A DNA stretch of 64,000 nucleotides, taken from assembly GCA_964017235.1 (NCBI GenBank), contig OZ024936.1, positions 50,519,028 through 50,583,027 on the forward strand, read 5' to 3'. The notes under the pieces were generated by a model. That model was not told where the DNA came from, did no database searches, and was given only the letters and a program-made list of their open reading frames with translations. Each line of letters starts with the position of its first letter. The stretch's first letter is position 1. This document shows positions 3,812-29,600 of this stretch, one piece after another. This DNA comes from Sabellastarte sp. h YS-2021 (lineage: Eukaryota; Annelida; Polychaeta; Sabellida; Sabellidae). Both the position numbers and the translations under genes were made by a program.

Positions 3812-3833
3812 TGGTGATATTGGTTTTATATTT

Positions 3834-4766
3834 CATTCCCCCACCCCAAAAGTGATGGTCAAAAGGTCAAAGTGACCACTGGACAAGAGTACCCATGATT
3901 ATGAAGACCGATAACTGAGAAGTGTTCTAAGAATTACAATTTCTTTGACCACCTCATGTAGTCACCCCAGCCCATGACCTTACAGGTGAGGTCAAACAAA
4001 AGGTCATGGGGTCAAAGTATCAGCCCAATCACATTATGAATCAACCACAAGCCAACCTAGAGTTACTACCCAAGCCATCCAGGCAGGTTCATAAGATTTA
4101 CAAATCTAACCATGTGGCAATAAAGCTACAGAGGCCTTGAGGTCAGATCGCCTCAAGGTCAAATGCGAATGATGAGACATACATCATATGAATCATGAGG
4201 TCAAAGGTAAAGAAGGTCAAAGTTCATCTCTGATGCTATTAAGGAGATGCATTTGAAGACAGGAAGTACCCAATTGGGTTTTAAATTTTTATTATTATAC
4301 AATAACACGATTATACACTCATACACAAGCTATGACTAAAAGTTTCTTTTAAGACACAATATCATTAGAAACAAGAACATTCTTTAAAACCACAATCATA
4401 CTCTCCCTCACTAGAAAATTTAATCAGAGAGCTGAAGTAAAATGTACTCATATAATTAACATTTTTTAGATAAAGCCCTAATATAGTGCCAACCTTCATT
4501 ATATGAACAATGACTACAACACCATATAATATGAAAATATTTTTTTCTAGAAACCAGGGTTGGCAATCCAAGACCCAATTTTAAGTGTGAAACACAGAGA
4601 GGTTAACCTCAAGTAGGAAGTTACATTTGGGTGATATCAAAGTAAATAAATGAAGATAAGCTGAAACCCCCCAGAAATGCCCCAGGGGTAATATCCCCTG
4701 AATTTTCTTACTTAGTACATTACTACAATATAGACATGACAATAAAATATGTAAAAATTCACCCAA
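3834..4766 (-). repeat. Split direct repeat B2 (terminal)
   Basis: 933 bp, identical as far as I can read to 5697-6629 (offset 1863). It begins CATTCCCCCACCCCAAAAG and ends at TTCACCCAA; the two copies diverge immediately outside these limits. It contains many GGTCA words (near 3855-3870, 3985-4015, 4140-4165, 4198-4225). A 68-aa frame (4365-4571, minus) is duplicated with it and shows no recognisable domain. Confidence 0.9.
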
Positions 4767-5696
4767 TGACTAGAACCGCAGGGAAAACCCCATAAAACAT
4801 TTAAAAGAATTGTTATCACACCATAGACGCGACTACGGCTAATAAAGATAGCTAATGACTGTAAGAGGTCACCAAGTGACCTATAATAATACGGTAGCCA
4901 TAGAAAAAATTAGGCATATATGCAGGCCATATGTCAATACGTTACAACCAAGAAGTAATATGTACACCAATAATAATGTATTCATTTGACACTGGTGAAC
5001 TGTTTACCAAGTTGCCCACATCAAAAATTAATATACAGCAAAGTCACAAACTGTGAACTTATAACATAGCCATATAACACAGTTGCATATAGCAACGTGA
5101 AGTAATTATAATAAAAAACTAAAAATGCTGCAGCAAAAATTAGATTAACTGGCAGTTCATAGCAGCAATTAAAAGAATTCTTACTTATTAATGCTCATAC
5201 AGAATATTTCAGGGTCAAGCCCATAACATATAGTCACGACAACACTGGAGAGAAGCAAACAAAAGTCTCTGAGAACTTCTGAAGTCGTGGTCAATTCGAG
5301 TAGAAGACAACCCTGTGAAGGTCCAATCCGTCGTAAGCTCCAGCTCCGCAGACAAGATCTCCCTCCAGCAGAGAATGGTACACTGCCACCATCAAGTGGC
5401 TCACTACAACTAAAGACATCAGTTAGCACACAGCCTACATATTCATAGAAAAGGGGGGGAACTAATGACACTAGGGTGGGTGAAAAAACAAATAAATTCT
5501 AAAAATTAAAATTCAGGTCTTGTCTTGTCGACTGCCAGTTCAAATCTGGCCATTCTCCCCTTGACCATAGCAAGGGTCAAACCTGTGACCAATCAGAAAC
5601 GACCATGTGGCCAGTAACCCATTTATAATATGGGGGTGTTTCAATATATGGGGGTGAAGGAATGATTAAGGTTGGCACCTAAATGCCAACCCACAA
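4767..5696 (-). repeat. A2 segment between the two B repeats
   Basis: This 930-bp spacer lies between the identical repeats. If the element is Ngaro/PAT-like it should match the missing 5' terminal repeat A1. A 96-aa frame on the minus strand (5181-5471) has no recognisable domain. Confidence 0.6.
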
Positions 5697-6629
5697 CATT
5701 CCCCCACCCCAAAAGTGATGGTCAAAAGGTCAAAGTGACCACTGGACAAGAGTACCCATGATTATGAAGACCGATAACTGAGAAGTGTTCTAAGAATTAC
5801 AATTTCTTTGACCACCTCATGTAGTCACCCCAGCCCATGACCTTACAGGTGAGGTCAAACAAAAGGTCATGGGGTCAAAGTATCAGCCCAATCACATTAT
5901 GAATCAACCACAAGCCAACCTAGAGTTACTACCCAAGCCATCCAGGCAGGTTCATAAGATTTACAAATCTAACCATGTGGCAATAAAGCTACAGAGGCCT
6001 TGAGGTCAGATCGCCTCAAGGTCAAATGCGAATGATGAGACATACATCATATGAATCATGAGGTCAAAGGTAAAGAAGGTCAAAGTTCATCTCTGATGCT
6101 ATTAAGGAGATGCATTTGAAGACAGGAAGTACCCAATTGGGTTTTAAATTTTTATTATTATACAATAACACGATTATACACTCATACACAAGCTATGACT
6201 AAAAGTTTCTTTTAAGACACAATATCATTAGAAACAAGAACATTCTTTAAAACCACAATCATACTCTCCCTCACTAGAAAATTTAATCAGAGAGCTGAAG
6301 TAAAATGTACTCATATAATTAACATTTTTTAGATAAAGCCCTAATATAGTGCCAACCTTCATTATATGAACAATGACTACAACACCATATAATATGAAAA
6401 TATTTTTTTCTAGAAACCAGGGTTGGCAATCCAAGACCCAATTTTAAGTGTGAAACACAGAGAGGTTAACCTCAAGTAGGAAGTTACATTTGGGTGATAT
6501 CAAAGTAAATAAATGAAGATAAGCTGAAACCCCCCAGAAATGCCCCAGGGGTAATATCCCCTGAATTTTCTTACTTAGTACATTACTACAATATAGACAT
6601 GACAATAAAATATGTAAAAATTCACCCAA
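5697..6629 (-). repeat. Split direct repeat B1 (internal)
   Basis: Second copy of the 933-bp repeat, starting 8 bp beyond the recombinase stop codon in element orientation. No difference from 3834-4766 was noticed, so the two repeats have not had time to diverge or have been homogenised. Confidence 0.9.
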
Positions 6630-6636
6630 ACACCCA

Positions 6637-7395
6637 TCACTGAGGTAGGTGTAGTCGAAAAGCTTGTAGAAGAGGGTCAGAAGGAGTTGTGGAGTGTGTA
6701 TGAATGTAACGCCATACGCAATCGGATTTCCAAGTACCTTGTTTTTTAATTGCATCAATGGGGACCCCATGTTGGAAGGCCCAAGAGGCCCCAGATTTTC
6801 TAAACGTATGAAATGTGATGTGCAAGTGGTCCCAACCCAGCTTGAAAATAATTCGTTTCAAATGTTTTCTGACAATAGTATCAGTCAGGGGAAGCCACTG
6901 GCCCTGCCTACATATGGAAAATAAAGGATCATTCTCAGAACCTGGGGTCATATGCAACATATGTTTTAGGGCAGCAACAGGGCATAATCTTGAATCAGGC
7001 AACACTGGGATGTGAACACGTGTTACTGTGTCCCTATACTGAAGGGTTTTAGACCATTTGATAATGATGATAGCCATATCATGGGAAAAAATAATATCAG
7101 CCCTAGCCAGGTGTCTGGACACGTCATATGTTTTGAAAGTATGGGGGACCAAGTTAGAGAGTCTCAAAAATGAGAAAAAGGCCAGCAGATAGAGTGGCCT
7201 GAATACTTGTGGGTCCTCTAAAGTTTCAGTGACTTCCAGGATCTGTAATAACATATCATGTGTAAGAACAGATACGTTCTTGATGGCCAAAGGTGTGTTA
7301 ATTTTTAAGGATTTTATAAACATTTGAATTTTTTCATGCCTGAAGCCAGTAGTGGGGATGTTGTACAAAACGCAATAAGCTCTGATACCAGCTAT
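6637..7395 (-). CDS. Tyrosine recombinase, N-terminally truncated by the element edge
   Basis: Catalytic domain of a tyrosine recombinase/integrase, which in DIRS-order elements inserts a circular DNA copy. Numbering from the codon at 7368, the signature residues are present: R69 (FSFLRLSN), K104 or a nearby lysine, H187 and R190 (FHTFRKSGA), W213 (GTWKSD) and the nucleophile Y221 (WRYIHTH). The frame has no ATG at 7368 (the codon is TTG) and stays open upstream to the element border at 7395 (IAGIRAYCVLYN), so the true start was lost by truncation. The stop is immediately followed by repeat B1. No frameshift is seen in the remaining part, suggesting a fairly young insertion. Confidence 0.82.
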   Translation of the reverse strand: MAGIRAYCVLYNIPTTGFRHEKIQMFIKSLKINTPLAIKNVSVLTHDMLLQILEVTETLEDPQVFRPLYLLAFFSFLRLSNLVPHTFKTYDVSRHLARADIIFSHDMAIIIIKWSKTLQYRDTVTRVHIPVLPDSRLCPVAALKHMLHMTPGSENDPLFSICRQGQWLPLTDTIVRKHLKRIIFKLGWDHLHITFHTFRKSGASWAFQHGVPIDAIKKQGTWKSDCVWRYIHTHSTTPSDPLLQAFRLHLPQ

Positions 7396-7417
7396 TGGTG
7401 ATATTGGTTTTATATTT

Positions 7418-8360
7418 AAGTGTGCAAGGACCCATGTGTTAGTGTATGCCCAGTCTCACATGTTTTTTGGAAGATAGGGATCACAAGTTGTGTTTCATTC
7501 AATATATTGTTTGGCTGAATAATGTAAGTACTAAATAATGTTGTTTTATCTTTTTGAAGAAACCTGAATATATAATATATAAGTAAATAATACATGAATA
7601 TTATAAGTAAATGACTATGTTTTATTTCTGTCCTGAAAAGTGTCTGCTGTTGGAATGATTTGGTATTAATTAATCATAGTTTATAAGTAATTTCTGATAA
7701 ATTCATTAATAGTAGTAACTATTCAGTTATATCCCTAGTGTTTTAGAGAGTTAATTTAGAATTAAGTACCATATGGTTCATTAAATCTCTGAAGTAAAGT
7801 ATCATGAAATAACAATGCTATATATGCTACTATTTATAATCTTAAGTGGCTTCAGATAACATATATTTCAGTTACCTTATGTTGTGACTATTGTGAGCAT
7901 CACCTGTGATCTGCTACTTACCAGTTATTTACCAGCTACTATCTTTAATGTATTTGTTTATCACTGCATCACTTACTACATCAACAATATATGTGTCACT
8001 TTACTACTAAATTGAAGTTCATATTCTTTGTTTAGGTGTGGATGCTAATATGTCATACCTGAAAGGTTAACTTATGTTACACTGACCTGGATGGATCACT
8101 TTAGCCAGATCTCTTCTGTATTCCGTATTATTTGTCAGTAACCTTTGTCAGAAATTCACACATTCTACCTGCATCCTTATTATCACCAAGGACTGATATA
8201 CATACAGTGGGAGCCTGATTTGAGTACTTTATAAATTTACAGAAGTCCAGACTTAATAAATTCCAGATATACTGGCGTCAGTAATATTGTTGATTATATA
8301 GTAATCATTAAAATTTTGGATGCCATATACGATTTAATGTCTTCATTTATTCATTAAATG
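7418..8360. other. Unique AT-rich intergenic DNA
   Basis: I see no gene or recurring repeat between the retroelement and the Harbinger-like relic. It is AT-rich with many short TA tracts. Confidence 0.4.
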
Positions 8361-13100: not shown

Positions 13101-16100
13101 AAGAAATACACTGAAAATATATTGAATACCTATCCTAGATCTTGATAATTAAGGATCTGTCTGACATTAAAAACAGTAGTAAAACAATAAACTCGGTGTC
13201 ATGTGATCTGTGGTTAATTTGCATATTCATTGCACACAAGTGCCAGTATTGATTTATGTTTCTATCAGTCTCAGTATTATAACAGAATGGTTTGGTCCTA
13301 AATTGCTCATAGCCTCCTCTGGATTCTTAATAAATGGTTTACTGGTCATAAAAACCAGATACATATTTTCAATTGGCATCCACAGAAGACTGAGAAATCA
13401 AGACTGTGGGTAAAATTTGTGCATAATTTTCTTATCATAACTGATCTTTTCAACTATCATTTAATTAATGCTGAAATAGCATGTAAGATCACGTTTTATT
13501 ACTTGAAAATTCATTTATAATTTGAAATGTAATGAGAGTGTTCCACTGGAGCTGACCCTACAGATGACCCTACGACTCTATGGTCGGCTCTAAAAGTCAG
13601 GGGTCAAGGACAAAAATCCATAAAAAAGGGCGAGAAAATCTAGGTCTGTTTCACCTCCCCGACAGGATTTGATACATTCAGGCTTGTCTAAAACTAGAGG
13701 CCGACCTGCCTTGGGGTCGGGATTTTTTGTAAGGACTAGTCTTGAAACTACCAGGACAAGCCCTAAACCCATAGACAGACAAGCCATAGCAGGTCCCAAC
13801 AAGCTGTACTGACACACAGGACTAGAGAAACATATAGAATCACCATGACCAGTCTTGCAGTCGGTATTGCCATTACAGTCTTTGATGAATTTCTGGGAAA
13901 AAAGAGGATCAAGTGCCGACCAATAAAGAAATCTGAAACTATGTCAAGGCTGAATATTTGGATCTATCACGTGATCAGAATGTCCAAATTTATTATTTTT
14001 TAATTTAATTATAGTTTCCAGGTGCTGTAATATTTTATATGAAATATAGCAATGTATGGCTGCTTCTGATTATTACCAAAAATCCACATAAAATAGCAAA
14101 TTTTAATTAAAACTGAAAGAAACTGTGCAAACAAGAACATGGAGATGTACTTCTGACAATATGTCATGTGACAATGAAAACCCTCTTGCTTGTAGCTGCC
14201 CTTTGTACTTCAATTTCGAGCTTCTTGGAAAGACCCTATGTAATTCTGATCACATGATGGGATCCAAATATTTACTATTGACCTAGTTTTAGATTTGTTG
14301 ATAGGTCAACACTTGATCCCTCTTTTTCCCAGAATTTGCATATGGGTTTTACAGTGAGAAAAATTAACATGTGATGGGATCCAAATAGTTAATAGACTGT
14401 CCTTGACCTAATTTTCTCGATTTGTTGATTGGTCAACACTTGATCCTCTTTTATCCCAGAAATTGCTCTGGTGAAATAGGGTGATAATTTGATTATACCA
14501 AATAAAACACGCTTTCACGTTTATTATAATGCCCCTGTTCCACCAAAGGATTAAGCCCCGATCCTGTCGGCGACCCTTAATCGTGCACAGTCGGTTGAAA
14601 AAAGACAAAAATGGGCGGGAATACTGGGTCGGTTTCAAAGTCTGGGATTAAGAACAGATCGTCCCCAGGACGCCTCAGGACACCTCAGGACGCCTCAGGC
14701 GGCCGCAGACAGTCCCCGACTGGTCTGGGACTAAGAACCGACTAAGCCAGTTTTCGGGTCGGTTTCAACCACGATCCTGTCGGACACAAACCGACTGGGT
14801 CCCAGGACGCCTCAGGCCTCCTGGGACTGAGAGCCGACTAACACACGATTAACTACCGGCGTCCTCAGGCGTCCTCAGGCCTCCTCAGGCCTCCCCAGAC
14901 CACGATCCCCGATTATTGTTTTTCAAAGTTGCTGGATTTTCTGGGTATATATATATAAAATTTGCGATCTAATCATCATTGCTTTTCTAGGAACACACCA
15001 GGATGCCACCTTTTAATGGAAGACAGATTCAACAACAACTTAGGGCTTTTTTGGTTTTTATTCACTTACAAATAATCATGTATTTCCATTTTTTACGTCA
15101 AGCACAGCAACCACCACCACCACCACCAGCACCACCAGCACCCATACAGAGACCCAGAAGAAGGCACAACATGTGGGTCAGGCCATGGCTACTGCAGAGA
15201 GAGGAGAGGGGGGCCTACCACAACATTATGGCTGATCTTTATGCCACAGATATTCCAGGATTCACCAACTACATGAGGATGACCCCAGAATTCTTTGAAA
15301 TGATGAAGACCAGACTGGAACCACGTCTAGCCAGGCAGGCCACCAACTACAGAGCTCCTATCAGTGTTGGGGAGAAGTTAGCCCTCACCATCAGATATCT
15401 GGCCACTGGAGAGTCATACACATCATTATCCTGTCAGTTCAGGGTTGGCAGATCCACCATTTCCAAGTTTCTACCAGAGGTCTGCAGGGCCATCCAGGAT
15501 GAGTTCACCAGAGAGTACCTCAAATGTCCTACTACTCCAGATGAGTGGAAAGAACTGGAAAGGGAATTCAGGATCAGGTGGAATGTTCCACATGCCCTGG
15601 GAGCCCTGGATGGAAAGCATGTGGCCCTGAAGAAACCCAAGAACTCTGGAGCCCTCTACCACAACTACAAGGGGTTCTTTTCCATTGTCATGTTGGCCTT
15701 GGTAGATGGGCAGTACAAATTCAGATGGGTGGATGTGGGTACAGAAGGGTCTTGCTCAGATGCCCAGATATTTAATGCCTCTCAGCTGAAGAGGAGGATT
15801 GAAGATGGCAGGATAGGCTTCCCTGACCCAGCTCCTATAACACAGGGTGGTACAGATGTCCCCTACTTCATTTTGGCAGATGATGCCTTTGCCCTGAAGA
15901 CCTGGCTCATGAAACCCTATGGCAGAAGGCTGTTAACAAGGGAGGAAAGGATTGCCAACTACAGAATATCAAGGGGCAGGAGAGTTGTGGAGAACGCTTT
16001 TGGCATCCTTGTGTCAAGATTTAGAGTCATGAGGACCACCATTGAACTACCCCCAGAAACAGTTGGAGAAGTGGTCATGACCTGTGTGGTTCTGCACAAT

Positions 16101-19100
16101 ATACTCAGAAGCCAGTATCAAGGTCAACCTGCTGGTCAGCAGCCTGGGGGGGATGATGATGATGATGATGATGTGCCTGGTGATTGTGGATTGATTGGTG
16201 GTGCTGCTGGTGGTGGCCAAGACAGAAACCCTGCTAGAGAGGCCAAAAGACAGAGGGATTACCTGAAGGACTACTTCAATAATGAGGGAGCGGTGGCCTG
16301 GCAAGATGGCAGAATATAAGTCCTGTTGCAGTAAACAGTCCTTTTCAGGACTAACTATAACAGTCCTTTTCAGGACTACCAAATATTCCAAAAACAATTA
16401 ATCAGCTATGTGGACAAACAGACAAACCCCATGCCAAACATAACTTGTTGAGACGGACAAACAGACAAACCCCATGCCAAGCATAACTTCTTGAGACGGA
16501 CAAACAGACAAACCCCATGCCAAGCATAACTTCTTGAGACGGACAAACAGACAAACCCCATGCCAAGCATAACTTCTTGAGACGGACAAACAGACAAACC
16601 CCATGCCAAGCATAACTTCTTGAGACGGACAAACAGACAAACCCCATGCCAAGCATAACTTCTTGAGACGGACAAACAGACAAACCCCATGCCAAGCATA
16701 ACTTCTTGAGACGGACAAACAGACAAACCCCATGCCAAGCATAACTTCTTGAGACGGACAAACAGACAAACCCCATGCCAAGCATAACTTCTTGAGACGG
16801 ACAAACAGACAAACACAACTTACTCACCCAACAAACAGACAAACCCACTCTTAAACAAAAGCCAAACACAAAGTCACACATAATATCCTAAATTAAATTA
16901 TTATTTCATATATTTTCAAATCCACATCCTAATTTAAACATTTTCCTTTTTTCATGGCTGGGAAACTTATTTGTAGCAGAAATTTTTTTATGGAAATATT
17001 CAATTTTAAATATTCATTTCTAATCACAAAAATTTGGAAAATATAACCATGGAACTAGTTTTGCTTTCAATAATGGGGGATTGTGTTTGCTAAATACTTT
17101 GTCAGTTCGTTGGCATGGGTTCTATTTACTTTTGGGTTTGTGTGTTTGTTGGTTACTGGGGTTGGGTTTTTTGGGGTAGTTGGGTATTAGGTTTGGTACT
17201 GGGTTTGTTATTTGGGGGTTATGTTTGGTATTGGGTTTGTCTGTTTGTGGGTTGGTAAGTATGTAATTATGCCTTTTAACTCTAGGGAAGGTGCAAGTGT
17301 TGGACTTTTCAATTACAGATTTTAAACTATCCCATGGATTTTAATCTAAAAATGGGCTGATTAATGGCCATATTGGGAGTTACTTTTAATATTTTTTTTA
17401 TGTGGCCTTTTTGGTTATGTGTAGTACCATGGGTTATTTGTTTCATGTTTGGGGTGGTGTAAGTGTTGGACTTTAATTTTTTTTTTCTTGTGATAAGTAT
17501 TTGTACTGAACTTTTTTGTTTTGGGAGGGGAATTGGAAGAACACGTAGCTGAATAATTGTTTTTGGATGATTTGGTGGCCCTGAAAAGGGCCTGGCAGGT
17601 CAAAGACCCGCCCTGACTGGATGGCTACTGAGGAGGCTGCTGCTGCTGTTGAGGCGGTGCTGAAGTGGTGATAGTAAAGAGCTGCTGCTGCGGTTGTTGC
17701 TGCTGCTGCTGAGGCTGCTCGACGATCTGTGTTGATGTCAGATCTGGTAGCTGGCTTAAGATTCCACTCAGATTGTGTCTGCTCCCTTCGTCCTGTACAG
17801 TTAGGACAGATGTCGGGTTGCTGAAGCCAATGGGGCTTGGTGTATAGTACACAAAACTGCTGCTAGCTGCTGCTTGAGTAGAACTTGACGCCTGTGGAGT
17901 GGTTGTTGGCAGTAGGCCGACCCTCTGGGACTCCGTGGTTACAGTGGCTGATCTTCTGGGCAATGGCTGACGTCTGCGGTTACTCTTAATATTTTCGATA
18001 TCTCTGAATATCTTGCCCTTTAATTCTTCGAATTCTTCTTGAGTCATCTTTTCGGCCTCTGATGCCACGTAGTCAAAGAAAGGCTGCCTGTCTGACTTCT
18101 GATGCATAAAACCTGAGATAAGTGTCCTCATCTGCTCAAAGTGTTCGAGAATCTTGGAGTCTGTAGTTGAAACGGGTGTTGATGTAATGATGGACTGACT
18201 CCTCTCCCTCAGGACACTTGACTCGAGGTGTTCTGTGTCAGTAGTTGACCCACGTGATTCGTCCTGCTTGCTGGTATTTGGACTGGCCTCAAAACCTGAA
18301 CTTCTATTGGCCCCCTTTCTTCTGATGTGGGTTTTAAGAAAACCCATCTGTTGGTAGACCCAGGACTGTCTCTTGGTCATCTCCCTCGGGGCTTGGCCAG
18401 ATTGGAGCTTAGACAGCTTTCCATAACGGGTTCGCTGGGACTCAAACCACCTTCTCACATCAAAGGGCTGGAGCTTAAGTTCTGCAGATATTTCTGCCCA
18501 GAGAGCCTCTCTTCTGTTCCTGTCGTGGAAACGTGAATGTTCCTTGTCATACAGTTCAGGGTGCAGCTTGACGAATTCTACAATGGAAACTTCATCACTG
18601 TCTGTAAAAGTGGCACACACCCTGGCTCTCTTGGCTGAAGAATGGCACTCCGGATCTTCCTCACACCTCTCTTCTTCTTCTGCCACAGCTTCCCCAATAG
18701 CTGGATCTTCCTGAATCTCCTCCTCCTCTCTCCTCTCACTTCCTTCTTCTGTAATAACCTCACTCCTCTACTTGACTTTCCTTCTCCCTCTCATCCATCT
18801 TTTTCCTTCCTCTCTTCCCTCCTTTCTCTTTTCTCATGATCCAGTCGACAAAATAATAAAAAAATAGTAAAATGTGTCTCCTAACTGTGAAATTTGCCTT
18901 AAGCTCAAGTATATAAAATGTAAAATAAAAACTGAAAACCCCTACAAATCAGTGACACACGTCTCTCAGTAGCCAAACAGTCAGTAACAACGACAATGTG
19001 TGCGCGGTCGCTTATATAGTCCCAGACCTGCTCATTGCCTCGTTTTAATTTCCAACGCGCGGAAAACAGTCGGTTCTTAATCGGTTGTTAGTCCCAGGCC

Positions 19101-22100
19101 GCCTGGGGCGTCCTCAGGCCGCCGCAGACTGAAAATGCGTGGTCCCAGGCGTCCTGGGGAGGCCGGTTTGGATCGGTTAGGGTCGGTTACCCTTAGTCGG
19201 TTCTTAGTCCCAGACCTTGATTTTTGGGTCGCAGGACACCGCAGACGGTCTGAGGCTTCCGGGGACTAATGCAACCGACTCACTTTCAGACGCATGAAAT
19301 TCATACGCATCATATTTGAGTCTGGGATTAAGAACCGGCCTCCTGGGACTAAGCTACGGAGGTCTGGGACTAAGGGTCGCAGGACGCCTGGGACAACAAC
19401 CGACTCTGTAAATTTGGGTCTGAGGAGGCCTGAGGACGCCTGGGACTGGACATTTTGTTGACGGCGGGAAATAGGAATCGGTTGTAGTCGTGTGAAATAT
19501 CAAACATGTTTGATTTTTCACACGGCCCCAACCGACCACAACCGACCCTTACAGAAGGTCTGGGACTAAGCAAATATTTCAAACCGACCCCCAAAAACCC
19601 TTAATCGGGAGCCTTAGTCGTGTGGTGGAACACCCACATTAGTTAATTACAGCATACATGTACACCTTTACCATCTGTAAACTTCAAAGTTATGATCATT
19701 TTCACTGTTTTGTGTCATTCATACCATAATTTTTAGACATATTTTCACCTTACATCATGCTGGAAATGGGGTGAAAATTAGCAGTACTAAGTTGCAAAAG
19801 ATAAGCTGGTTTCATGATAGGCCAGGCCTGGAATTGATATAGACAAGTTTGGAAGGGATAAGGCAAGACAGGAAGTGAATAAGACAAGTCGGTTACCAGG
19901 AAGGTGGAGACTTGGTCTTTAAAAAGAGTCGGGGAGGGTTGGGGAAATATTGAACATGTTTGACATTTTGCTGACCCACTGGGACAAGCCAGGAAAATAC
20001 AGCCGACCCTAACCGACTATGTAAAAATTTCTCCCGACCCTCAAAAATGCTTAGTTACCAATAGGTGGGCCAACAGTGGAGCACCCACATAAATCATGAA
20101 AGCTGTTCCGGTCACTCAGCTGAACAATAGTTATTTTAACTTTAAGATAACTTATTCTTCATTGATGAAAGGAATTTTTTCTGTAATTGGGCACTCTATG
20201 TCTGAAGTAAAATATCTGGAAATATGTCACTATTCGGATTAATATTACCTCTACCGGGTGGCTATATTTTTGGGCGCTTTCATTGTCTGTTTATTTGTCT
20301 GTGTTCCACAATAAATCCAAAACTGCTGAGCAGATTTTTCTCAATTATTACATAGGGGTAAGGCCTGATCAAGGGATGAAGTGATTAAATTTTGGTCAAG
20401 ATCCAGTCGTATTCTGAATATATATATAGAAAATAAAAAATCCCATCTTAAAGTGTTGTTAGTGAATTTCAATACCTTTTTATATGACATTATTCCAAAA
20501 ATGACGAGGTGGTATTCATGATTTTTTTTTATCTGGTTAGACCCTGTTCAAAAGAAGAAGTTATTACATTTTTGGAGAAATCAAATAATATTTTGAATAC
20601 CCCAAAAAATCCCAAGTTTTCAGAAATATCCTCCAATGGAGGTCTGTGCTCTCGTTTTAGCCAAGGCCATCATTACCTCCAACATTATCATTTTTTTTTA
20701 AATTTTAACTGCCCTTTTTCACAATGGGATATCCTTGACAGTAAACACTACTGAAATTATAATTATAACAAACAGTTGCGAGGGAGCACAAACCCTGACA
20801 CAGTGATCCAGAACTAGATATCTTAATACAGATCCAGATTGTTTCAAAAGGAACATGAGTAGACTAATGTGATTCATCGTTTTTGATTTACAGAGGAGAA
20901 ACGGTCAAAACATATTCATTAAAAATACATCCAAATCCAAACCCCCGTCAGTGTAAGAGTACTACAACGGATAAGTATAGATGATTTTATTGCCAAAGAG
21001 GAAATCCTTCATTAAATATATATGATAATCAGTGGTTAGTTAGGATTCTATAAAATCATTGGGGTCTTCAAATCATGGAGCTCTGGCATGCAATTACTAA
21101 TTCTCCCAGGGCCTGGAATCGAACACTGGACCTAAGAGACGGGAAGCAAGTGTGATACCCATGGTACCGCTCTTTCTCCTTTGTATTGAAAATAAATGAA
21201 GCTTAAGTGGTCACGATTCCTGCAAGGTAAACCATCCTGATTCAGAGGATTGAATTGAGGTCAAACTTTTTTACCAGTCCTGTCCGAGATTCAAATCTCA
21301 TCGCCAGAGCTGAGAGGCTTCAGTTTATCAAGTATATCATCAATAGTTTACAGTGACAAAAAGTGATTCTGTCCTTTGCTGGTGTCTTCTCTAAGTAAAG
21401 TTAAATAATTATAACTGACTATATAGCAATGTGGGGGGAATAGAATAATCTCTCACCTCTGAGGTTTTGGGTCTAAACATCATCCAAATCTTTCAAGTGG
21501 GATTGTTGGTTACTGTGCACAATCTTAACTGGCTGGTATACATTTTTTCTCCCTCCCTTCAAAGATGTAATATGGCTTATACCGCATGTTGATAACAACA
21601 ATGTCAGACCCTGAATGAATAGAATTCAATTCAACTAATTAATCTAATCAAGTTATTTATACAGAGAGCCTGTCAGTGGGCGATAAAGTAGTAGTCTTCA
21701 GTTGGACCTGGTGCAGGAAATGTACTTACTGTTTGGCTGGGAGTCAGTTTTGTCAGTACAGAGACGATGAAGATGCACATATATACGGCTTGACTGTGGA
21801 TGGAGGGTAAGTTGAAAATTAAGATACATGAAATTTATCACTAGGTTGGGGGCACCACCTTAACTGAGGCAAAATAATCTAAATTTTAGCAAATTTTGCA
21901 TCAGGGGAGACCAGAGAACTTCTGTTGCCATAAAGATTATAAATGTGTCCAGAATTTGCCATAAGTAATTAGAAGGGTGGTTTCCACACAAGCAAATTTC
22001 ACATACTCAACCATCATTTAATAGATTTATATCTGCAAGTGATATGTATCTATAACATGTCAATACAAATTTTGTTGCTATTATCATTGTGAGTCCTATT

Positions 22101-25100
22101 GTAATACCTGTTATATTGGTATGGTAATTGAATGTGGATTAAAATAATTGAAGAACAAATATGTTACCACTAATACAATTAATTATCTACAAAGCTGTAA
22201 AAAGGCATATGCCTAGCTATGAAAAAATTACTTATGAGTAGGTCTCCAGTAACTAAATCTACATCATGCTGTGTTGTTTTGTAACACCTTTATATTATCT
22301 GTATTCTATGTTCTATTTTTCATGCTGTTTGTGTATAGTACGTGTTTGTCTTTACGTTGTTTTATGTACATTTTGTGTTTATTTCTCTACATTGACTGCA
22401 ACAATCTTGTTTGTAATTGCCACAATAGTTTTGTCTCTACTACCAATGGAAAGGAAAAGATGTATCAGTTTATGTTGTTTAATATACTTTTATGGCTTGA
22501 GATACTGCTTTGCATTCTCCGTATGGCTTGGGTGCATACTGCAAATATTGTGTTATAATCTGAATTAAAAATTATTCAAAATAAAATAAAATTAATATCT
22601 GCAAATTGCCAAGGGCTTCGTGATAAACAAAAACGCGTTGATGTTCTCAGCTACCTTAAAGAAACAAATGCCTCTATCATTTGTCTACAGGATACCCATC
22701 TTCTGGATACTGATCTGGCTTCAGTGAAACAAATTTGGCACGAATGTTATATAAATGGGAGTAAAACAAATTCTCGAGGTGTGGCTATCCTGTTAAACAA
22801 TAATTTTGAATTCAAGGTATCTAAAGTAATAAAGGATGATGGTGCAAACTTTTTGCAACTTCTTGTAAGTTGCAATGAACTCAACATAAATTTGATCAAT
22901 ATATATGCACCTAACAATGATCAACCAGAATTTTTCACAAAAGTTTTTGAAGCTGTCAGCTACGATGGTTTTGATCATGTTGTACTATGTGGTGATTTTA
23001 ATCTTGTTCTGGATCCAATAAAGGATACTTTTAATTATAAACATATCAACAACCCAAAAGCTAGATTAAAAGTCATAGAAAGAATGGCCGAACTAGAAAT
23101 GGTAGACATATTTCGCCATATGAATCCTGATGAAAAACGATATACATGGAGGAAAAAAAATCCTGTTAAACAGGCCCGTCTCGACTACTTTTTGGTGCCA
23201 AATTCATTGACAGATATTGTTGAGACAATTGATATCAAGCCTGGGTATAGATCTGATCACTCAATTGTTGAAATGCAGATAAATACTAATAAATTTGTAC
23301 AAGGCAGTGGGATTTGGAAATTTAACAACAGTCTGCTAAACAACCAAGACTATCTAAATTTAATCAATAAAGTAATCACAGAAGAAAAATTAAAATATGC
23401 ATTACCTGTGTATAATTTAGACTATATTAGGGACAATAATATTACTTTCTCAGTTGATGATGATATCTTCCTAGAAACTTTGTTTTTAAGAATCCGTGGA
23501 GAAACCGTAAAATTTTCCAAGTTCCTAAAAAAAAAGGAAAAGGTACTTGAATCAAATTTGAAAAATGATATAGCCTGGTTGGAATCTAATGTAAATGAAA
23601 GTAATATGAAACTATTAGATGACAAGAAAGCTGAATTGGAAAGTATTAGAAAAGAAAAAATTAAGGGGTATATCACTAGAGCTAGAATACAATGGCTTGA
23701 CCAAGGCGAAAAGCCTACTTCTTTCTTCTGTAAACTAGAAAGTAAACAATTTACAGAAAAGACCATTAGGAAACTGCAGCTTGACAATGGCTTTATTATC
23801 AATGACCAAAAGATGATTTTAAAAGAAGTACAGAAATATTATACAAATCTTTTCAAAGAAAAGGAAACATTTTCTGATTTCAACCTTGCCAAAAATATTA
23901 CAGGCAATAAAGTAAATCAAAAGAATGATATAGGAAAAAACATTTCTGTCATGGAACTTGGTGCTGTTCTTAAAAAAATGAAAAACAACAAATCTCCTGG
24001 GATAGATGGCCTGTCATCAGAATTTTTCAAAGTATTCTGGGGTAAATTAAAGCATTTTACAGCCAATGCGATAAATTCATGTTTTTTCAAAGGCTGCCTT
24101 TCAATATCTATGAGGCAGACAGTGATAACATGTCTACCTAAGGGACAAAAAGATAGAAATTTATTAAAGAACTGGCGTCCTATTTCACTGTTATCGGTAG
24201 TCTATAAATTGGCATCTGCCACTATAGCTGAAAGGTTAAAATCCACTCTACCGCATATTATTTCGAGTCATCAGTCTGGCTTTCTATCTGGCAGAAGTAT
24301 AGCAGACTCAACAAGGCTTGTATATGATTTAATGAGCCACACAGAAAAAAATAAAATTCCAGGACTTTTAATGTTGATAGATTTTGAGAAAGCATTCGAT
24401 TCTGTATCTTGGAGTTTTCTTTACAAAGTGCTAGACTTTTTTGGCTTTGATAATGACTTTATTAATTGGATAAAGCTTTTTAATAATAATGTTATCGCGT
24501 ATGTCATTCAATGTGGATTCCTGTCTGACCCAATACCAGTGAAAAGGGGCTGCAGACAAGGAGACCCAATTGCCCCTTATTTATTTCTATTGGTTGCTGA
24601 AATTTTGAGTCGTATAATTGAAAATTCTTCATCAATAAAAGGTATTACAATTGGTAAACATAACTACAAGCTTACACAATTTGCAGATGACACAACTATT
24701 TTTTTGGACGGGAGTACCAAGTCTTTACAGGCAACTCTTAATGTCTTGGAAACCTTTGGGAGCATCTCAGGTTTAAAAATGAACACTGAAAAAACTAAAC
24801 TCATCTGGATTGGTAGTAAAAAACATTGCAAAGAAAAGTTAAATGTTTCATCTAAACTGCACTGGGGGGATTCTGACTTTAACCTTCTTGGAATTGATTT
24901 TTCGATTGAACTAACACAAATGCCAGAACTAAACTATGAAAAGGCAATACTAAGAGCAAAACAAACTCTTAATTCATGGCAACACCGTTACTTAACACCA
25001 ATTGGAAAAATAACAGTCATTAAAACATTGATTTTATCAAAATTTACCCACCTATTTTTGTCTGTGTCAACCCCTCCTCATTTGATCAACACACTTAATA

Positions 25101-26618
25101 AACTGCTATTTAGTTATGTTTGGGATGGCAAGCCAGATAAGATAAATAGACAACAAATTTGTAAAAAAATCTCAGATGGAGGACTTGCAATGATCCATGT
25201 GTACAACTTTGAAAGGTCACTTAAAATAAGATGGGTAAAGCATATCATTTCTGGCCGAAACTGTGCATGGCTGACTTTATTAAATCATGAAATTAAAGAC
25301 CTGAATAAGCTGGCCCTTCTTGGAGGGGATTGGCTCAATCATCGAATATCAAATTTAAATCCATTTTGGAAAACCGTATTTTCATATTTTATGGAATTAT
25401 GTAGAAAAGTAAAAGTCCATTCTCGTCAAGATATCGTCTCTAGTAGCCTATGGTTCAACACTCACATTGGTACTGACAATCTTTTCTTTCCAGACTGGTT
25501 TAAGCACGGTATATATAGTATTGGAGATATTATTCATACAAATGGAAACATTTTAAGTCTACCAGAAATGAAGAATAGGTATAACTTTTCAATTAACTTT
25601 CTTAACTACTTTACAGTTAAGAAAGTACTTCAAAACTTTATTACACTTTACCAGCAGAGCAATACATTCGGCTTTCAGAGACCATTTATCCCATTTCATA
25701 TAAAAGACTCGCTACTTCCAGGACGTGGACATAAATCTGTTTATTTTCAGCTACAGCAGAAAATAAATAAACCACGGAAAAATGAATTAAAATGGTGCTT
25801 AGAATTAGACATTGTACAGGATAATGACTTTTGGAAACAAGTTTATAAGATCTGTTTCTGTGCTATAAATGATAATGAATACATTTGGTTTCAATACCGC
25901 ATACTATATCGTATCCTGGGCGTAAATGAGCTATTAGTTAAAATGGAAAATGCAGAGAATGATACGTGTAGGTTATGTCATTGCCATGTGGAGTCGCTAA
26001 CCCATTTATTTTCTGAGTGTACTGTCACAAATGCATTATGGAATAATGTTGTATCCTGGATAGAAACAAAAATATCAATAAAGCTTCATCTGGATAAGAT
26101 ATCAAAAACTCTGGGATATCTTGAACAGGATAACTTTTTCTGGCCACTAAACTTTTTTTTAACTATTACTAGGTATTATATTTTTACTTGTGCACATAAA
26201 AATCAAGACCCAAACATATACTGCCTTCAGAATACAATGAAACAAAAGTTCTTTGAACAAGAGATGCTATCAAGGGTCAATAATACAAATGAAAGATTTG
26301 AAAAGACTTGGTCTCGTTGGTGTAAAATTCTAAAAAATGACACTCAATAGTTGAATATTTCTCTCTGATGGATACCAGTTGGAAAATGTAGAGCAGTACT
26401 TCAGTTTTTACTGAGAACATTAAGATGTAATGCATATTTTTCAAGAAAAAACAAGTAAATGATATAACTTCAGTATTGTAAACCGGTTATAAACAGGTTT
26501 GTGCTTTCCTTTTAGTGAATACGTCTCTGTCCGTGTCTTTCTTGTTATTGTCCTTGTGATTTTCATGTTCTGTATATACATGTTTATATATATAATGTAA
26601 AATATCAAAAATATCAAT

Positions 26619-26649
<31 letters not shown>

Positions 26650-29600
26650 ATACTCTGATGATTTTCACATTTCTTTCCATGCACCTGTCGCTGGGTTGAA
26701 TTTTCAATTGATGATAGGCATCATCGTGTTAATTTAATTTTCATTATTACTTCACACTGATAATTTTATTCAAATGCATTTTTCTGACAAATATTATTAT
26801 TTTTACACCAAACTAGTAGTAAGTTATAGAATAAAATAAGTCAGAGCTTCGGCTATGATTTCCATTATAATTTGAATGGTAATTTTCTATTTTAATTACT
26901 CTTAATTTTTACTTTTGGGCTATTATTCCAGTTGATGCGGATATATGTGAGTTGGTACTAGTTGTGTTTTAGTTCACATTTGATAATGCTTAACTAAACT
27001 TATATATAAATGTATCAAAAACCGTGAAAGGGAACACATTGTTCTTACAGTTTCCAGCAATACGAGGCAGTGAGGAATCCATTATCTGTTGTGAAAGTAC
27101 CTGAAGGCATTCCTTTAGAAGTGGCATGTCTTGTCCCCTGTGGTGGAATCACAGCTTACAGTGCAGTGCAACAGAGCAGAGATAGTATTGATACCGAGAT
27201 ACAAATGTCAGGTAACATTTGTTAAGCTATCACATTGATGCCCATTTTGACTCAAAATCACCAAATCAGCATGCGCCTTGACAAAGGCATTTTCCTGGGG
27301 GCCAACTTGACTAAGGTATTTTATCTTGCCTGTGATAGGCAATCATACTGCAAGAATGTGTAAATTTTCCCTGTTGCCAGATGTCTCAGTGTTTTTGCCA
27401 GTTTCAGTCTAAATTTTAAGGGCCTCCATGAAATTGGTGTGTGACTTCTTGATGTGGTGGCTTATGTGTTCCGTAAAAATGCAGGTGGCATCCTGACAAA
27501 ATTCTGGTAGCCTGGGAAATCAGTCTGTGTTAGGTCAGCCAGGAAGCTTCTGTTGCAATTTCTCTTTGTAGGATACAGAGCATGACCCAAGGGTTTCGTG
27601 GCTTCCTTCTTCTCCTGGGTGGTGGCGGGGGCTGTGGTGAAGGTGCTGGCTGTAGGGCAGGTGGTGGTCCTGGGTTCAAGATATGTCCTTTTCTATCTGT
27701 AAATCATAATGGAAATCAAAATATTAAACTCAGTAAAAATCAAGGTACCCTAAGCTTCTGTAAAAAGTCTCTCTGGAGTAGCTGGCCTACTAGCAGTGAT
27801 AAATAATTATTTACAGCAGCCGGAAAGGGCTGATATAGTGTGGGTTTGATCCCGACTTGCAACCAGACTCCTGAAATTTTAAAGTCCAGTCAGGATGGGT
27901 GGGGATACTGGTCCAGTCCTGTCATTTTGTCCCTTTGGCTTGTCTCGATATCTTCACACAGCTTTTCCTCAGTATTTTGCTCCATATCTTTCTTCCTACA
28001 GCAGTTCTTATAGTACCAGGCGCAGTCAAAGTGGTGGTAATTTCCTTGCCATACCAAAGTTCCACCCGTTTGTTCATAAATCTGTCAAAACAGTTTGGTA
28101 ATAGTTTTGCTTTTGATGCTCCCAGTATTTGGAATGCTCTCCCAGATGAGATTCTTGCCTCACCCTCCCTAGCCTCTTTTAGAAAGCAGCTTAAAACCTA
28201 CCTGTACACCAAAGCATACCCACCGTAGCCTGTATCATCCCCTGGCGTTCTCTGTGGTGCTTGACCTTCTCTTCTGTCTCTGGCTTCTGAAATTGGTTGA
28301 ATGCTTTTTGGTTGTGTTGCGCCTTAGAGTCCTCTTTATATCGGGAGATTAAGTGCTATAAAAGTCCAATTAGAATTAGAGTCGATATGATCCAGCTTGT
28401 CTGTTAGGGATTTATGGCTTGTCCTGGTAGATACTGTCTTGTCGTGGAGAAAAAGACCCCGACCCCAAGTCAGGTCAGGATCTAGATCCAGACAAGCCAA
28501 GGCTTACTACATTGGAGATGTGAAACAGACCCAAGTTTTTTGTGCCTCTTTTTCTGGATTTTCATCCCTCATTCCTGACTTTTGTAACCAACCCTAGAGT
28601 CGGCTCCAGTTGAACATCCTCATTAAGAATAACAGAAAAAGACAGAAAAGTTTGATCCACCATATAATTTGGCCTCAGATTTGACCTCATACTTCGTACT
28701 GATACAATGTTGTCTCAAACATTTTGGGAAAAATGTCAAGCATTGTATCAGCTTAACTGAGGTACATCTTTTTACTTTGAAACACCTTTATGACAATTTT
28801 ATATGACTGCATAACAACAGACCAGTAGATCATATGACATGTAAATACAAAAAAATCCACAAAATTCTGAACAGATGATAAATGTTTTTTTGTGAATCAT
28901 AATATGTGTTATTTTGATTATTTAGTCTTTCTTTTAAATGTATTTCCTCGTGGTTAATTTGACATTCTAGTTTGGTGAAGTTCACAATTTGTAGTCTACT
29001 GCTCTCCCATATCAAACCAATAGCCAAAACTAGTTGTAAATTTTCAGGTCAAGCCAGAGTCCTGGTTGTGGGTGTGGGGGGTTTGGGTCTTTGGGCCACA
29101 GGATTTGTGAAAGTCATCTATGGAGACAAGGCTCTGGTGTGTGTTGCAGATTTGTTTGTAAGTATATGTTTTGTGATTTGATGCAGTTGCACCCAGACAA
29201 AGAATTTCTCAAGAGTGCAGTTACCAGGCAATAGGTTGGGTTGAACATTACTGTCAACATATTGTATAGTTGATATTATGATCGTTAGTTTAGGGGACTA
29301 GACAATTAAACTTCTGCACTGACAAGGTTAAAAGGGGTTTCGGTCTACTAGAGTGAGCCACAAAGTTTTTATCATAGACAGAAATAGTGCACAGTAGTGG
29401 TCACCCATCCCAGTACTAACATAGCCCATTGCTGCTTAACTTCAGATAAAACCCAGACGGGTGACCCTACCATTGTCTCCACTCTCCATTATTTTTGCAT
29501 AATGGAGAGTTAACACTACATTATTTTCTAACAGTGGATTGTGATTTAGTTCAATGGCCAGTCTGCCAAGAACAAAAGGTTAATCAGTATTTGCCAGTCA

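Follow-up and report, generated by a model that had tools for sequence, protein, structure and literature searches.

A truncated Ngaro-like retrotransposon with a duplicated target in Sabellastarte sp. h hints at a second way of entry beside recombinase integration

The stretch of Sabellastarte sp. h YS-2021 DNA analysed here (64,000 nucleotides of contig OZ024936.1; hereafter the window) contains a 5'-truncated Ngaro-like tyrosine-recombinase (YR) retrotransposon at positions 3834-7395 on the minus strand, comprising a partial YR gene, B1, A2 and B2. The duplication of target DNA at the edges of this copy was confirmed, and is not predicted by integration through a YR. Truncated copies with a duplicated target, which are LINE-like in this respect, hint at a second way in. 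We give about even chances to a model in which Ngaro-like elements enter chromosomes here by two routes: integration by the YR, and a 3'-anchored route for 5'-truncated copies.

Read along its coding strand, the window copy begins within the YR open reading frame, of which the 3' part is present (6637-7394, minus), and continues through B1 (5697-6629, minus), the 930-bp A2 segment (4767-5696, minus) and B2 (3834-4766, minus), which ends at the family 3' terminus (..GGGGGAATG). The two B repeats, originally predicted to be identical over 933 bp, are exactly so, with 0 differences. The predicted recombinase frame likewise has a Pfam Phage_integrase match (E 5e-8), but the frame of 6637-7455 (minus) overruns the element. 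The element part ends at 7394, because six relatives that carry A1 have one common, different sequence upstream of the breakpoint. Position 7395 is a single extra base (A on the coding strand, minus) that is absent from the target repeat and from the relatives at the same place, and the frame from 7396 onward is target sequence. The window copy lacks A1 through truncation; only the first 216 bp of A2 (5481-5696) match the A1 of relatives.

The 22-mer TGGTGATATTGGTTTTATATTT lies flush with the element at its 5' edge (7396-7417) and at its 3' edge (3812-3833) as a perfect match, in agreement with the original prediction, and does not occur again on either strand of the window. The edge-matched repeat score of this copy is 22; in 420 mismatched left-right flank pairs the best score was 7. 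The flank is an old repeat with paralogs elsewhere in the genome, and four paralogous empty sites (L020, 81%; L021, 76%; L022, 72%; L023, 77%) align without a break from the left flank through one 22-mer into the right flank. Because these sites have a single copy, the 22-mer is target DNA duplicated at insertion. The opposing reading, that it belongs to the element, was rejected, as relatives lack it at the matching place. In a fifth paralog of the target (L024), about 2.2 kb of other sequence interrupts the alignment near the place of the window insertion, close to the start of L024.

Five segments of the family served as queries against the genome assembly (1.79 Gb, 647 contigs), and all locus counts are lower bounds. 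Among the matches listed, the nearest subfamily has at least nine loci, comprising two complete, four single-B and three 5'-truncated copies. The complete copies (L014 and L015, about 7.7 kb) have the arrangement A1-gag-RT/RH-YR-B1-A2-B2, while L009, L011, L012 and L013 carry A1 and the gag, RT and YR regions and show a single B within the sequence retrieved. The truncated copies start in YR (the window copy), in B1 (L016) and in A2 (L010); again among the matches listed, 5' truncation is seen in 3 of 9 loci, and A1 with the B end missing in 0 of 9. Split direct repeats of the form A1 ... B1-A2-B2 are present in L014, L015 and L025. The three open reading frames of L014 (401, 804 and 342 aa) contain Pfam RVT_1, RVT_3 and Phage_integrase domains; the first has no Pfam match and is called gag from its position only, and none of the three has a Pfam match to a methyltransferase domain. 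The gene order of L014 is thus gag (by position), RT/RH, YR without a methyltransferase, as in Ngaro-like elements.

Judged from repeat arrangement, gene order and domains, the family is Ngaro-like. The copy had been labelled Ngaro/PAT-type: the truncated Ngaro-type assignment stands by arrangement and domains, whereas PAT-like membership is not supported, the three L014 frames having no match to a methyltransferase domain. Full-length copies were expected to carry A1 together with gag and RT frames, and L014 and L015 do so, with gag assigned by position only. A Crypton (a YR element with neither RT nor split repeats, and hence lacking an A1/A2 pair) was rejected, since the relatives carry RT/RH and A1. 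Integration without target duplication, usual for such elements, is seen in 12 of 13 intact-edged copies and fails in five truncated copies, the window copy among them; with its duplication, the window copy is therefore a Ngaro-like family member by descent, not by mode of entry.

The near identity of B1 and B2 within young copies (1 difference in L014, 0 in L015 and 0 of 933 in the window copy) fits a renewal of the repeats in every cycle. Single-B copies, with A1 and the coding regions and without A2-B2, include L018 and L019 in addition to the four named above, and in the youngest subfamily four of the six copies with intact edges are of this type. Solo AB copies (L026, L031, L032 and L033) start precisely at A and have no clear target duplication. 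Both types may have arisen by recombination between repeats, which has been proposed as the source of isolated AB repeats (PMC8547959).

Copies with intact edges begin with TTG(T/C)(G/A)GG and end with GGGAATG. These relatives, whether complete, single-B or solo AB, have no clear target duplication and are inserted mostly after NTT. Their edge scores are at most 7 in 12 of 13 copies; the exception, L009, scores 14 because it sits in a 21-bp tandem repeat that continues across the insertion, and the score of 7 for L031 comes from a displaced 8-10 bp repeat. By eye, 14 intact-edged copies (the 13 and L042) have T at -1 in 12 cases, T at -2 in 12 and both in 10. In the first of the two proposed routes, the YR would insert the finished element precisely, mostly after NTT and without duplicating the target.

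Further loci were chosen by a B end whose upstream part was unknown, and were assessed for duplication by the score of an edge-exact repeat. Together with those of the nearest subfamily, seventeen apparent 5'-truncated copies reach the 3' terminus (the window copy, L010, L016, L027, L028, L029, L035, L036, L043, L055, L056, L057, L058, L060, L061, L063 and L065). Five have an edge-exact duplication, one is ambiguous and 11 have none, so that the combination of 5' truncation with a target duplication of variable length, characteristic of L1-type insertion, is found in 5 of the 17. The duplications measure 106 bp (98%) in L027, 34 bp exact in L035, 22 bp in the window copy, 18 of 19 bp in L028 and 10 bp exact in L029. 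Duplications of 15-25 bp had been anticipated at other truncated copies; they do recur, but span 10 to 106 bp and are missing from the 11.

The weakest case is L029, where the 10-bp match has an E of 0.086 in its own flank and is not significant alone; its edge score of 10 nevertheless exceeds all 420 mismatched flank pairs (maximum 7), and its support rests on the place of the match. For L027, five paralogs cover almost the whole of the joined site at 68-70%, and the duplicated segment occurs once in the three fetched paralogs that run through the site. A deletion of about 40 bp is common to both duplicate copies and absent from these three paralogs; both copies therefore descend from one target. 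By eye, the sequence into which L027 is inserted resembles part of a different YR retrotransposon, its RNase H region. The ambiguous copy, L010, has a 35/43-bp repeat that cannot be told from array structure, because it lies inside a 169-bp satellite. The young 5'-truncated copy L016 has no duplication (at most 4 bp). L043, L055 to L058, L060, L061 and L063 are older, with less certain 5' edges. L056 starts at the same B position as L037, and L058 at nearly the same position as L065; some apparent truncated copies may therefore be subfamily borders.

Left out of the 17 were L030 (3' end disturbed, with an inverted copy nearby), L037 (tandem B units), L050 (a 99.8% duplicate of the L035 locus), L062 (ambiguous, starting at B position 2), L044 to L049 (solo, old or partial, with the B end unresolved), and L038 to L042, L059, L064 and L066 (internal element parts upstream of B). 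L051 to L054 were rejected as candidate truncated copies, having turned out otherwise on fetching. As loci were picked by their B end, 3'-truncated copies were hardly sampled. Of 40 A1 loci listed, 36 were followed: a B end lies within 16 kb downstream in 28, and 8 have no known B end. Genome-wide, the pattern for the start of A gave 278 matches and that for B gave 68; the A matches listed come from more subfamilies than those of the B pattern.

The joints of the five duplicated copies bear on how they were made. At the 3' side, the joint directly follows the last element base in four of the five, and L027 has one ambiguous base with one substitution just before the end; poly(A) is present at this joint in 0 of 5. 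At the 5' side, inspection by eye found 2 shared bases in L028 and 1 each in L027 and L035, while L029 shares 2 bases when compared with its own B2 and none when compared with another B, and the window copy has no shared base and one extra base. The target sites are CTT|AAA (window), TAG|ACT (L027), TAA|TTG (L028), TTT|AGT (L029) and ATA|TAA (L035). From the truncation, the retained family 3' terminus, the duplications, the lack of poly(A) and the short 5' matches, some copies therefore apparently entered by a 3'-anchored route, which appears to resemble target-primed reverse transcription.

In such a second route, an unfinished copy with a complete 3' end and a short 5' end would be inserted without normal YR recombination. 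A nick in the chromosome would provide a 3' end, from which the element template would be copied into DNA beginning at its last B2 base, as in target-primed reverse transcription; synthesis would halt early, the other target strand would be cut 10-106 bp away, and the 5' joint would be sealed with 0-2 matching bases. As parts of this scheme we infer the chromosomal nick as primer, RNA as template and the element's own RT as enzyme. The target-primed model explains jointly the 5' truncation, the retained 3' terminus and the variable length of the duplications, while the 11 of 17 apparent truncated copies without a duplication count against it. Tentatively, and with a modest probability, we propose that the RT of the element itself begins synthesis at a chromosomal nick, exactly at the element 3' terminus; the DIRS order would then use target-primed reverse transcription as well as integration by a recombinase.

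A LINE could instead have acted in trans, reverse transcribing element RNA at the target as in the processed pseudogenes of HERV-W; the original prediction had likewise offered insertion by LINE-type target-primed machinery. Truncation together with duplication fits this explanation, as does the window target, which on the coding strand reads CTT|AAATATAAAA and agrees with TT/AAA. The window also holds a LINE (22009-26643, plus) with an open 1263-aa endonuclease-RT frame and an A25 tail, which we take to be L1-like. It has a candidate 12-bp target duplication, TTTCACATACTC, at 21997-22008 and 26644-26655 (E 0.05 alone), and its 5' edge is putative. However, none of the five duplicated copies has poly(A), whereas the window LINE ends in A25, and a TT/AAAA-like site was seen by eye in 1 of 5, the window copy only, the other four (L027, L028, L029 and L035) being misfits. 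HERV-W pseudogenes show poly(A), TT/AAAA sites and duplications of 5-15 nt (PMC5537654). The missing poly(A) and the poor match to TT/AAAA speak against mobilisation in trans by an ordinary L1-type route and weaken the LINE-type option; we regard LINE action in trans as quite improbable.

The 3' joint raises a further alternative. An AATAAA motif lies 460 nt before the B end (428 nt in subfamily 2). Should the RNA end at this motif, RNA-primed copies would be expected to stop short of the B2 terminus, which may favour a DNA intermediate or a 3' joint made by the YR. The latter has to be weighed because the family 3' terminus is also the end used by the YR. The YR might thus make the 3' joint at the B2 end and host repair close the 5' joint, starting from an incomplete or broken circle or from a full insertion that later lost its 5' part; the duplication would arise if, ahead of end joining, the left target arm were extended by 10-106 bp along a sister or homologous chromosome. 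Besides the shared terminus, the CTT| of the window copy and the TTT| of L029 match the intact-edged copies (TT directly before the element in 10 of 14), and truncated copies without duplication could be simple 5' deletions of YR insertions. TT precedes the site in only 2 of the 5 duplicated copies (by eye, and in a small sample), L027, L028 and L035 having TAG, TAA and ATA, and we consider this combination of YR and repair unlikely.

Finally, host end joining might capture linear element DNA at staggered breaks in the chromosome, with no priming step. The mixture of copies with and without duplication and the 0-2 matching bases at the 5' joint are as expected from such capture. End joining frequently trims ends, yet the full 3' terminus is kept in 5 of 5 copies (trimmed 3' ends being under-sampled, since loci were found by their B end), and 106 bp would make a long stagger. 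Unprimed capture seems very doubtful. A recurrent second kind of insertion, with the 3' terminus complete and the target duplicated, would be a natural source of information on the starting point of DNA synthesis and on ways around the recombinase in DIRS-order elements, whose copying and insertion are understood chiefly from models. For annotation, a target duplication alone is insufficient to exclude a YR element.

Elsewhere in the window, an open reading frame with a DDE_Tnp_4 transposase domain (14991-16319) is presumably Harbinger-like. An Rfam histone 3' stem-loop (17552-17597, minus) lies just downstream of a MADF-domain frame (17625-18767, minus); a histone-type 3' end on a MADF-domain gene would be odd.

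Among known systems, the HERV-W processed pseudogenes made by L1 are similar in that a non-LINE retroelement carries LINE-like marks, and differ in their poly(A), TT/AAAA sites and mRNA-like ends (PMC5537654); the five duplicated copies here have no poly(A), and their end is the DNA terminus of the element. In titles and abstract openings, with subscription literature mostly outside the search, no report was found of target duplications at truncated YR retrotransposons, and no paper joining Ngaro with target-primed reverse transcription and target site duplication. Cafeteria burkhardae has 5'-truncated copies (Ngaro type 2b) and isolated AB repeats, comparable to the truncated and solo AB copies here, but section 11 of that account describes no edge duplication at its truncated Ngaros (PMC8547959). 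In VIPER/SIRE of Trypanosoma cruzi, SIRE corresponds to A2-B2, like our solo AB copies, while duplications are unmentioned in the part of the source covered (PMC6681497). DIRS1-like elements have a 3-bp junction, mostly NTT, without target duplication (PMC3266345), and the NTT-type junctions of the intact-edged copies resemble these. With Ngaro-like retrotransposons, which have the arrangement A1-[gag, RT/RH, YR]-B1-A2-B2 (PMC8547959, PMC9210276), the family shares the repeats, the gene order, the RT/RH and YR domains, the lack of a methyltransferase match and intact-edged copies without clear duplication; it differs from them in its recurrent 5'-truncated copies with target duplications of 10-106 bp.
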